Below, piece after piece: positions 59,826-64,000 of a stretch of DNA of 64,000 nt. Under the pieces are notes generated by a model. It saw only the letters and a list, made by a program, of their open reading frames with translations. It was not told where the DNA came from and did no database searches. Numbering within the stretch: position 1 is the first letter of the stretch; each line of letters opens with the position of its first letter. The stretch comes from an uncultured Clostridia bacterium. Its GTDB lineage: Bacteria > Bacillota > Clostridia > Christensenellales > Aristaeellaceae. The DNA lies in contig CANQEW010000003.1 of the NCBI GenBank assembly GCA_947596085.1, forward strand, positions 1-64,000, read 5' to 3'. A program made the translations under genes and the position numbers.

Positions 59826-61100
59826 ATGGCGGATAAGAAGCGCCGCAGGCGCGCCCCGCGCCAGGCGGTGCGCACGGAAAACTACAGCATCAAGACGCTG
59901 CACGAGGACCGCGAATACGGCCTGTACTGGTATGCCTGGCTGTGGAAGCTGGTGCGGCCGGTGCTGATCTTTCTGTGCAGCGCGCTGATCGTAATCGGCC
60001 TGGTGAGCACCGGCTACAACTGGATCTATGACAACTTCCTCGGCCCGGCCGATCCGCAGGCAGAGCAGTCCGCCGAATTCGTGATCGAGTCCGGACAGTC
60101 GCTCACATCCATCGGCAACGCGCTGGAGGAGCAGGCGTTCGTTCGCAACGGCAGCGTGTTCCGCTATCTGGTGCAGCTGGAGGGCGTGGGCGACCAGATC
60201 AGCTATGGCTCGTTCCGGCTCTCGCCCGCGATGACGGTCAACGAGATCATCGCCGAGCTGACCAGCGGCAGCCAGACCAACGAGCGCACCATCACCATCG
60301 TGCCCGGCTGGACCTGCGAGGACATCGCGGACTACCTGCTGCGGGAGGGCGCGATTGACTCCGTGGACGAATTCCTGCGGCTCTGCAACGACGTGGACCG
60401 CTTCGTGGGCGATTCTTACGCGCTGCGCTTCGCGCAGGAGCACGGCGGCCTGGCCGGCCGCAAGTATGCGCTGGAGGGCTATCTGGCGCCGGACACCTAC
60501 CGCGTGTTCCTCTCCGCCAGCGCGGAGGACATCATCTCCACGCTGCTGGGCCAGCACAATTCCGTGCTCGACCGCACCTACTACGCGGACGAGCAGGTGC
60601 GCTACCAGGTGGACGAGAGCGGCGCGTACGTGCCGGTGGAGAGCTACGAATCCGAGCTCAACATGGATCAGTCCATCATACTGGCCTCGATGATCGAGAA
60701 GGAGGCCGCGCACGAGGAGGATTACGTCAAGGTCTCCGCGGTGTTCCACAACCGGCTGAACGCCGGCATGCGCCTGGAGAGCGACCCGACCGCCACCTAC
60801 CTCTTCGGCCTGAATCACTATATTCTGACCCCGGAGGAGGTCAGCGACCAGAACCTCTACAACACCTACCAGGTGCCGGCGCTGCCGGTGGGGCCGATCT
60901 GCAACCCCTCCACCGCCGCGCTGGAGGCGGCGATGCATCCGGATCTGGACTTCATCCAGCAGAACTACCTCTACTTCTGCGCCACCGATCCCGCCACGGG
61001 CGAACTCGCATACGCGACCACCGTGGAGGAGCATCAGCAGAACGTGAGCCGCTACCAGCAGATGTGGGCCGCCTATGACGCGCTGCATCCGGAACGGTAG
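59826..61100 (+). CDS. mltG: Endolytic transglycosylase MltG
   Basis: 424 aa. A basic cytoplasmic N-terminus, one helix (about 46-66, VRPVLIFLCSALIVIGLVSTGYNW) and a YceG-like domain outside. LEGYLAPDTYRV contains the catalytic glutamate; ASMIEKEAAHEEDYVKVSAVFHNRL and NTYQVPALPVGPICNPS are family blocks. It cuts nascent glycan strands in peptidoglycan and so sets their length. It closes the rnj-ylbF-mltG operon. Confidence 0.95.
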   Translation: MADKKRRRRAPRQAVRTENYSIKTLHEDREYGLYWYAWLWKLVRPVLIFLCSALIVIGLVSTGYNWIYDNFLGPADPQAEQSAEFVIESGQSLTSIGNALEEQAFVRNGSVFRYLVQLEGVGDQISYGSFRLSPAMTVNEIIAELTSGSQTNERTITIVPGWTCEDIADYLLREGAIDSVDEFLRLCNDVDRFVGDSYALRFAQEHGGLAGRKYALEGYLAPDTYRVFLSASAEDIISTLLGQHNSVLDRTYYADEQVRYQVDESGAYVPVESYESELNMDQSIILASMIEKEAAHEEDYVKVSAVFHNRLNAGMRLESDPTATYLFGLNHYILTPEEVSDQNLYNTYQVPALPVGPICNPSTAALEAAMHPDLDFIQQNYLYFCATDPATGELAYATTVEEHQQNVSRYQQMWAAYDALHPER

Positions 61101-61119
61101 CGAAGAGTGATTCCGAATC

Positions 61120-61180
61120 AAACAGACCAAGGCCGCATTTCAATGCGCTCTGCACATTTAAATCGACCTTGGTTTGTTTT
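61120..61180 (+). terminator. Terminator after mltG, with a large loop
   Basis: AAACAGACCAAGG (61120-61132) pairs with CCTTGGTTTGTTT (61167-61179) with a single mismatch. The 34-nt loop includes its own small hairpin GCATT/AATGC (61135-61146). Confidence 0.7.
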
Positions 61181-61226
61181 AATAGTTAAAAATCTTTAAA
61201 ATTTAAAACAATAAAACAACAGACAA

Positions 61227-61257
61227 TTAACGACGGGGGGGGGTAAACCATTATAAT
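61227..61257 (+). promoter_or_regulatory. Promoter with a G9 tract in the spacer
   Basis: TATAAT (61252-61257) is preceded by nine consecutive G (61235-61243). The best -35 candidate, TTAACG (61227-61232), is 19 bp away; losing one or two G would bring the spacer to 18 or 17. The region 61181-61306 is otherwise AT-rich and gene-free. Confidence 0.65.
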
Positions 61258-61306
61258 ATTAAGTAAGGGCAAAAAATGCCAAAAGGAGAAGAAGGGAAGA
61301 AGAGAG

Positions 61307-64000
61307 ATGAGGAGTAGCGTAATACGCCGAGTGATGGCAATGCTGGTCTGCTTCGCGATGCTGCTGGCGAACGTAGTTGTGGCTGAATCCGAGCCGTCAA
61401 TCGGCGGCGAAGTGGAAGCGCAACCGGCACAGGTGGCGGCCGTCGAGGGAGAAGCCTGCGAGGGTGCGACGCCCGAAGAAGAGGGAACCGCTGCCGAAGC
61501 GGCGGAGACCGCCGAAGCGGAGGAGATCGCCGAAGCAGAGGAAATCGCTGAAGAGGAACCGACCATCGAGACAGAGGGAACGCCGGAAGCGGAAGGAACT
61601 GTCGAAGAAGAGGAAACGCCGGAGACAGAGGAAACTCCTGAAGCGGAAGAGACTGTCGAAGCGGAGGCAACGCCCGAGGCCGAAGTGGCTACCGAGGAAG
61701 GCGATGCCGGGATCATGCCCATGATGGTGGTGCCGGACTGCGCGCATGAGTTTGTGGATTACAGCGAGGAAAATGTTTACGACGTCGTGGTGGTGGATTC
61801 GAAAACGCATACACCGCGGGTGCAGCGCATCACGGGAAAGAAGTGCAGCAAGTGCGGGTACTTCTCGGAATACGAGGTATCCGAACCGGTGCGTGGTGAA
61901 CCGGAGCCGCACGTATATTCGCCTGAGTGGCCAGGTTGTTGTGAGGAGTGCGGTTATGAGTGCACACATGAGGGTGCGACCGATGTGAAGACATGGACAG
62001 ACTGGGATTATTATGCCATTTCTCCAGAGAACCACGTTAAAGAAGGCTACGTATGGAGAATTTTTTCCTGCGCGACCTGCTATACGACGCAGGAAGATGA
62101 AGAAGAGTATGTACAGACCATCCCTGGCGAACCAGAGCCGCATCATTTTGTGGACGGCCGCTGTGCGGACTGTGGTTACAAAGCAAAGTGTGAAGACGGC
62201 GAACACAATTTTGTGCGGCAGAGCGTGATGAGATATAGCGTAAGCTTCGACTACTATACTCCCAGCGCTGACGGCAGCCATTGTGTTGGCCACGGAAAGA
62301 GTGAATCTATACTTTATGAGTGCGTAAAATGCGGGGAGCATTACTATATATCTTCCTATGACCCGGATGCCGTGGTCGAAATGGAGCATGTATCGGGGGC
62401 TTATGATCTCCAGCGTACGGGCATATGCACGCGGTGTGGTCAGGTGACTGCCTGCCAGCACGTGAATACTTCAGAAAGGTGGGAGAGTGAGGATGTCATA
62501 TTGAGCGATGTTCCCATTCAATCCAACGGCAATGGCACGCATACGGGAAAGCTTCGGCGCAGATGTTGGCTGTATTGTTACGACTGTGGCCGCGATTTTT
62601 TCCGCGAAAAAGTTGTAGATGTGACGGAGCGATGTGATTTCTCCAAAGATCCTCATAAGTGCTCAATCTGCGGTTTTGTGCGGACCATGGATGAGATAGA
62701 ATGCGAACACCCGAATAGAGTTCTTGTCGAGGGTTCGGAACGCAGAAGCGGATATGATGGCATTCATCCCGATCCTCAGGATGCGAGTCAGCATATTTAT
62801 GATTCTACATGGGTTGAACAGACATACTATTGCCCGGATTGCATGGGATATATTCAGGAAGAACACGAAGAGAGCGTTCCTTTCACGGAAAAGCATATCT
62901 ACAACTTCGAGAAAATCAGCGATGCGCAAGGGAACGCGGTGTGGCGTTGTGGCTGTGGCTTTGAACTGCCTGCTACGGAGGAGTGTGTCCATGAAGATTT
63001 AAGTCCTTTTGACTATACTGCTTCTTATGTTTATAATGTCGATTTTATGTGGAAGGACAGTCAATACCATTTAAGGTTGGCAGAAGGAGGACAAACATGG
63101 ATATGTGATTCGTGTGGGATGATTTTTTCGGCGCCTGCGGAAAGTGCCCTTACGGTGCTTGAACCGCACGTGTGGGATCCCACTGGCGTTTGCATCTACT
63201 GTGGCGGTTCAAAGACCGCAGCGCCGAAGCCGACGGAGGCCCCCACCGAAGCCCCGACGGAAGCTCCGACGGAAGCACCCACGCAGGCCCCGACCGAAGC
63301 GCCTACGCAGGCCCCGACGGAAGCACCCACGCAGGCCACGACCGAGGCACCCACGCAGGCTCCCACCGAGGCTCCGACAGCAGCACCCACACAGGTCCCG
63401 ACAGAGGCTCCCACCGAGGCTCCGACGGCAGTGCCCACGCAGGCTCCGACGGTAGCACCGACCGAGGTTCCGACTGAAGCTCCCACGGAGGCACCGAGCG
63501 AGACGCCTGTGCCGAGCGCGACGCCGAACGCTGAGGTGACGGCGACGGTCGAGCCGACTCAGCCGGTTCCCACCGAAGAGCCGGCCGCGACCGAGGAGCC
63601 CGCGCAGACGGCCGCGCCGAGCCCGACGCAGGAGCCGGCGGTGGACGAACCGGTGTTTACGGAGGTCGCGCCGGACGGCGATCTGCACGGAGTGCGCACG
63701 GGAAACGGCCTGCGCATGGCGGAGGCGCTGGGAACGGCGGCGCGGAACATCGCGCAGGAGTACGGCGCGGACGTGCGGGTGTTTGTACAAGGCGCGAACC
63801 GGATCTTGAGCGAGCATGAGTTTGCCGCGCTGGAAGCGCTGCCGACGGACGAGCAGGTCATGGTGGTACTCACGGTGCTGGGGTACGAGGAAGAAGTGCA
63901 GAGCGGGCTGAACGCGATGGTGATGACGCTGTCGAACGAGGCGACGGCGCTGATCGAAAGTATACGCGCGCGGATCGCGGGAATGAGCGAGGACGAGCGC
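61307..64000 (+). CDS. Large secreted surface protein with CxxC knuckle array and PTEAPT stalk (3' end outside window)
   Basis: 898 codons are open to the window edge. A signal peptide (MRSSVIRRVMAMLVCFAMLLANVVVA) is followed by an acidic Glu/Thr/Ala-rich part (about 45-130). Residues 180-632 hold eleven CxxC knuckles, such as CSKCGY, CADCGY, CVKCGE, CTRCGQ, CYDCGR, CSICGF, CPDCMG, CDSCGM and CIYCGG, plus one CGCG, often with a histidine some residues before (HHFVDGRCADCG, HVWDPTGVCIYCGG). A stalk of PTEAPTQAPT repeats runs from about 640 to 740, then a Pro/Glu/Thr linker. The last visible part (DGDLHGVRTGNGLRMAEALGTAARNIAQ) begins another domain. The ribosome site is GGGAAG. The function is unknown; zinc binding and exposure are inferred. 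Confidence 0.85.
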   Translation, partial: MRSSVIRRVMAMLVCFAMLLANVVVAESEPSIGGEVEAQPAQVAAVEGEACEGATPEEEGTAAEAAETAEAEEIAEAEEIAEEEPTIETEGTPEAEGTVEEEETPETEETPEAEETVEAEATPEAEVATEEGDAGIMPMMVVPDCAHEFVDYSEENVYDVVVVDSKTHTPRVQRITGKKCSKCGYFSEYEVSEPVRGEPEPHVYSPEWPGCCEECGYECTHEGATDVKTWTDWDYYAISPENHVKEGYVWRIFSCATCYTTQEDEEEYVQTIPGEPEPHHFVDGRCADCGYKAKCEDGEHNFVRQSVMRYSVSFDYYTPSADGSHCVGHGKSESILYECVKCGEHYYISSYDPDAVVEMEHVSGAYDLQRTGICTRCGQVTACQHVNTSERWESEDVILSDVPIQSNGNGTHTGKLRRRCWLYCYDCGRDFFREKVVDVTERCDFSKDPHKCSICGFVRTMDEIECEHPNRVLVEGSERRSGYDGIHPDPQDASQHIYDSTWVEQTYYCPDCMGYIQEEHEESVPFTEKHIYNFEKISDAQGNAVWRCGCGFELPATEECVHEDLSPFDYTASYVYNVDFMWKDSQYHLRLAEGGQTWICDSCGMIFSAPAESALTVLEPHVWDPTGVCIYCGGSKTAAPKPTEAPTEAPTEAPTEAPTQAPTEAPTQAPTEAPTQATTEAPTQAPTEAPTAAPTQVPTEAPTEAPTAVPTQAPTVAPTEVPTEAPTEAPSETPVPSATPNAEVTATVEPTQPVPTEEPAATEEPAQTAAPSPTQEPAVDEPVFTEVAPDGDLHGVRTGNGLRMAEALGTAARNIAQEYGADVRVFVQGANRILSEHEFAALEALPTDEQVMVVLTVLGYEEEVQSGLNAMVMTLSNEATALIESIRARIAGMSEDER
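63218..63520 (+). repeat. Tandem repeat encoding PTEAPT stalk
   Basis: Units of 12 bp of the type CCGACGGAAGCN, varied as TEAP, TQAP, TAAP and TVAP, repeat about 24 times. Whole-unit loss or gain would keep the frame and change stalk length. Confidence 0.85.

Follow-up and report, generated by a model that had tools for sequence, protein, structure and literature searches.

The window, the whole 64-kb stretch of DNA analysed, lies on contig C3 of its own genome (G000; 3.1 Mb in 132 contigs). The following features were located around a long run of G.

59826..61100, + strand: MltG/YceG-like gene (PF02618), the upstream neighbour, outside the proposed switch
61120..61179, + strand: inverted repeat read by eye in the interval from mltG to the promoter, with arms at about 61120-61132 and at 61167-61179
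61218..61231, + strand: 14-mer AACAGACAATTAAC, which takes in the greater part of the -35 region and is identical to sequence next to the G10 tract in the promoter of a Cys-rich protein on contig C135 of the same-genus genome G001
61227..61232, + strand: -35-like hexamer TTAACG, a 4/6 match to TTGACA
61233..61251, + strand: spacer of exactly 19 bp, ac-G9-taaaccat
61235..61243, + strand: G9 tract, the predicted slippage site within the promoter spacer
61252..61257, + strand: -10 hexamer TATAAT, a 6/6 match
61307..64000, + strand: the putatively controlled gene, encoding a secreted Cys-rich (CxxC-array) protein, with its stop beyond the window

The layout given in a preliminary description of this DNA, a G9 tract between TTAACG and TATAAT at a 19-bp spacing, was confirmed from the window sequence. 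A homopolymer of at least eight residues thus lies wholly inside the -35/-10 interval, which is the mark of a spacer-length (porA-type) promoter, and 63 bp separate it from the ATG at 61307. As a matter of geometry only, the spacing passes through the 17-bp optimum as the number of Gs changes, being 19 bp at G9 and 17 bp at G7. A consensus scan of 61095-61420 on the + strand returned no promoter with a 16-18 bp spacing, in keeping with the earlier view of this as the sole good promoter before the gene. Moreover, 61235-61243 is the only run of eight or more Gs in the window, and the statement that no other promoter there carries such a run also holds.

The Cys-rich protein is 960 residues long in the full contig; it begins with a signal-peptide-like segment and contains recurring CxxC motifs as well as acidic and PT-rich linkers. 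Pfam returned a PT repeat alone, below its cut-off, and the similarity to homologues in the family lies chiefly in PT-rich or C-terminal sequence. The nearest relative is a paralogue on contig C25 of the same genome (32% identity over 540 residues), which is extended by seven Big_2 domains plus one CAP domain. The gene had been called a surface-protein gene. The signal-peptide-like start agrees with this, but the protein has no recognisable anchor, and the wording was therefore softened to secreted or cell-surface, the safer label. Another G9 tract lies about 140 bp upstream of a 1929-residue CxxC-array secreted protein on contig C80 (L080 605-756), with no clear promoter around it. An RNA element at this tract and at that on contig C79 was considered and rejected, as Rfam matches at the two loci were limited to tRNAs.

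The inverted repeat is a possible mltG terminator; a terminator scan of the region did not call it. No run of eight or more Gs was present anywhere in the DNA fetched for 32 of 34 MltG relatives, and in the two nearest of these relatives (74-76% identity) different genes follow mltG. Synteny downstream of mltG was therefore rejected, and the locus is not conserved. A search for DNA homology to the region in 40 relatives found nothing outside its own genome. The related assemblies are mostly bins of rumen and other animal-gut Clostridia, plus one that is rabbit-derived by name. A shared GACAATTAAC upstream of TATAAT was also tried as a family-wide promoter motif and was rejected because it gave 7 matches in 150 genomes versus 4 in controls; among the matches, a long G-tract was present only at G001 C135.

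The lengths of G-runs were evaluated in the window, the genome and its relatives, with one genome assembly per species as the basis of comparison. Dinucleotide shuffles of the whole window (63% GC) gave a mean of 0.98 G9 runs, and the single G9 is therefore weak evidence by itself; the local expectation from the upstream DNA, with G at about 0.18, is about 4e-5 G9 starts. Observed runs in the window drop about five-fold with each added G and are almost exhausted by G6. Exact counts in G000 were 25 G7, 6 G8, 35 G9 and 2 G10, with 43 runs of G8 or longer, and the 35 G9 runs compare with 1.4 predicted by extrapolated decay. The peak at nine is far above any smooth run-length decay in G000, so that the genome has many tracts above its own background, as a simple-sequence-repeat (SSR) phasome should. 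The same-genus G001 has about 30 runs of G8 or longer with a mode of 10 and a range of 8-14, a spread that G000, tight at 9, lacks. G002, also of the genus, has few runs, mainly in two low-complexity clusters. Among 200 family genomes most have a handful of G9+ matches and some have many, very long runs included. Very high G9+ counts were seen in G084, G108, G106, G060, G014 and G185, partly from runs of 20 or more Gs, and this excess could be a low-complexity artefact or real.

Five of 31 G-tracts in G001 lie exactly at contig ends (C11, C181, C199, C252 and C308; about 5e-11 by chance), which suggests that the assembly breaks there through either mixed tract length or sequencing failure. Illumina failure at G-runs has been noted (PMC9187656) and could also produce such contig ends.

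Poly-G tracts were also found in the spacers of other promoters, in G000 and in three relatives.

G000 C25, paralogue promoter: TTGACA-GC-G9-TATTGTAA-TATAAT (gc-G9-tattgtaa), spacer 19 bp
G001 C38: promoter with TTTACC, spacer 19 bp
G001 C135: promoter with TTAACC and G10, spacer 20 bp
G001 C75: promoter with TTGACA, spacer 19 bp
G001 C252: promoter tract incomplete at the contig start
G069 C111, C119 and C122: spacers 19, 18 and 19 bp, respectively
G155 C306: spacer 18 bp

The four G001 tracts precede genes for two Big_2 proteins, one Big_2-like protein with leucine-rich-like repeats discerned by eye, and one periplasmic-binding protein, all with signal-peptide-like starts. The window promoter and that of G001 C135 have 14 bp in common adjoining the tract, which is G9 in the former and G10 in the latter. 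The promoters of G069 C122 and G155 C306 are orthologous, with flanks 87% identical, and differ in tract and spacing (G10 and 19 bp versus G9 and 18 bp); they drive an ABC-transporter ATPase, a non-surface gene. The seven further tracts with both hexamers in G001, G069 and G155 all have spacings of 18-20 bp. In fetched sequences with a TTG-type -35 and TATAAT but no G-run, the spacing peaked at 17 bp, with 33 of 51 promoters, as against 0 of 9 poly-G promoters (Fisher P 3e-4). Good promoters contain 2 of the 43 tracts in G000 (P 0.005), a pair that includes the window finding itself, and 3 of the 30 in G001 (P 2e-5). Of random 9-bp positions at these loci, 0.17-0.33% are inside a promoter of equal quality (0.25% in G000 and 0.17% in G001). 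The G001 result is the cleaner test of enrichment because every run of G8 or longer was listed there irrespective of promoters; G069 and G155 were left out because they had been picked for containing promoter hits.

Two tracts of G000 occupy other positions upstream of genes. An inverted repeat of 11 bp (GCGAAAGCGGC...GCCGCTTTCGC) with a G9 in its loop is found upstream of the gene for a Big_2/CAP-like secreted protein (L081 1130-1240, C12), and another G9 immediately precedes the start codon of a gene reading as smpB (L070 about 2610, C1:49608), an unusual position for a switch.

Within genes of G000, runs of G8-G10 occur in HsdS, Acyl_transf_3, GT1, GT2, PMT_2 and solute-binding protein (SBP) genes. 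Eight genes stay in frame across the tract as assembled, among them those for HsdS, GT2, a transferase of PMT_2 type, the solute-binding protein, with its tract directly after the signal peptide, and an FkbH-like enzyme, in which the WGGVIGDDG stretch is open. Roughly as many genes are frame-OFF. In three Acyl_transf_3 genes (C7, C18 and C13) the frame changes exactly at the tract, and intact sequence on either side of such a homopolymer break would be the trace of past slippage. Short genes for nif11-like leader peptides are clustered at L056 (C36:16500-24500); four of them have a G9, and two copies are frame-OFF near the start at the assembled length. These leaders were named by eye; a Pfam search returned nothing for the leader. 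On contig C88, hsdS stands between ORFs read as hsdM and hsdR (L067 1944-3176), and its G9, with TAEL repeats just before, lies between the two Methylase_S domains. The tract in this type I HsdS is a candidate methylome switch. Genes for surface products, glycan modification or restriction thus carry tracts, and some are frame-OFF, as is characteristic of an SSR phasome.

The possibility was considered that a neutral G9 of a GC-rich genome happened to land in a promoter. The shuffles would supply one such run per window and many genomes of the family have a few; however, with runs decaying about five-fold per G in the window there are still 35 G9 in the genome, G002, of the same genus, is almost free of runs apart from its low-complexity clusters, and the same architecture is found before the paralogue. 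Chance is considered highly improbable. Homopolymer miscalling in sequencing or assembly, fixing many runs at 9, was likewise examined. Such an error would have no preference for promoter spacers or contingency-type genes, and G001, the sister species, has its peak at 10. At eight coding genes, HsdS and the FkbH-like gene among them, the frame is open with the tract as assembled, so that its length is right at those genes. Although the genomes are fragmented and apparently metagenome-derived, the run length of G000 is suspiciously uniform and G-runs of G001 lie at contig ends, an artefact is hardly credible as the explanation.

The tract could also be a fixed structural element, giving a spacer of 18-20 bp that is rich in G and A-form-like and makes the promoter dependent on supercoiling or on an activator in the style of MerR. 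MerR-type regulators twist DNA at promoters with 19-20 bp spacers, and their operators are dyads inside the spacer. By inspection no dyad is present in ac-G9-taaaccat, gc-G9-tattgtaa or the other spacers, and a MerR-type 19-bp promoter was rejected. The nine of nine measured poly-G promoters at 18-20 bp, never 17, and the highly uniform G9 of G000 fit a fixed spacer, but two species differ in tract length, G9 against G10, at an orthologous promoter. Furthermore, the same G9 class breaks frames in coding genes, so a role in promoter geometry cannot account for the class. A fixed element is unlikely.

The window G9 is probably a contingency locus, a spacer-length switch within a genome-wide poly-G set. 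The phase-variable reading of the preliminary description is supported by the paralogue with the same layout, the tracts in three relatives, the 18-20 bp spacings against a 17-bp background, the difference in tract length at one orthologous promoter and the genome-wide G9 set in classical contingency genes. Polymerase slippage would add or remove Gs and shift the -35 to -10 distance by 1 bp per G, so that individual cells would transcribe the downstream gene for the secreted Cys-rich protein more or less strongly. The predicted states are best or ON at G7 (17 bp), intermediate at G8 (18 bp), low at G9 (19 bp) and off at G10 (20 bp). Given the 17-bp optimum, the assembled G9 consensus would represent the low state. 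That all poly-G promoters exceed 17 bp may reflect a majority of low or OFF cells, or an optimum that is displaced when the spacer is rich in G. Against a switch, just 2 of the 43 G000 tracts are in good promoters, the -35 of the window promoter matches at 4 of 6 positions, the G000 tracts do not vary in length as those of G001 do, and the orthologous G069 and G155 promoters belong to a non-surface gene. Loss of mismatch repair as a cause was rejected: mutS is present in G000 and G001 and the G000 MutS appears intact, and therefore no repair defect accounts for hypermutability. From sequence, we infer that slippage would occur in this species at present and would affect expression.

More broadly, the roughly 40 near-identical G-runs look like slippage-driven on/off switches of surface, sugar-coat and DNA-modification genes, and some 35-43 of the G000 tracts would act as promoter-spacer or intragenic frameshift switches. 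The benefit would lie in a varied surface where hosts or phages exert pressure. We tentatively propose, at somewhat less than even confidence, a large poly-G phasome whose set-point depends on the species (9 here and 10 in the sister, with almost no tracts in a third). In this proposal three things would be varied jointly: secreted proteins by way of promoter spacers, cell-surface glycans by frameshifting and the methylome by the HsdS G9. If true, a phasome of 40 loci in an uncultured animal-gut lineage would make homopolymer switching also a main strategy in gut Clostridia, and commensal surface diversity would be legible from metagenome reads through G counts. The promoter tracts form a natural length series for the effect of spacer length on Clostridia transcription. 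Phase variation in gut Clostridia has been discussed mostly as DNA inversion, as in C. difficile (review PMC11868660). The open-access literature, subscription papers lying outside this coverage, yielded poly-G phasomes for Neisseria and Campylobacter and a Bifidobacterium case, and none for this lineage. The mechanism would thus be one already known from Neisseria porA, in a gut Clostridia poly-G set not found reported in that literature.

Phase-variable type I HsdS proteins with poly-G are known as the NgoAV type of Neisseria. The C88 HsdS resembles this type in having G9 between two target-recognition domains, where an off-frame length would give a half-size subunit, and differs in being known here from sequence alone. 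In Neisseria porA, the PorA transcript level tracks the number of Gs in the spacer (PMC3899988). The window promoter is like N. meningitidis porA in its poly-G between -35 and -10, the change of spacing by one per G and a secreted or surface product. It is unlike porA in phylum (Clostridia), in an assembled spacing of 19 bp that exceeds the optimum, in forming a set with a paralogous gene and in that the expression effect is a predicted one. The phasomes of Campylobacter and Neisseria comprise dozens of simple-sequence tracts in surface-modifying genes (e.g. PMC6321876, PMC5953494). The present set is similar in its many such tracts in surface-modifying genes, although it belongs to another phylum and is known from one assembly per species. 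The pilus of Bifidobacterium breve UCC2003 has G9-G12 tracts with measured slippage, and additional tracts occur in promoter spacers (PMC9187656). This organism is likewise a Gram-positive gut commensal; the tracts studied in it are intragenic and few, whereas about 40 are found here, including those in promoter spacers.
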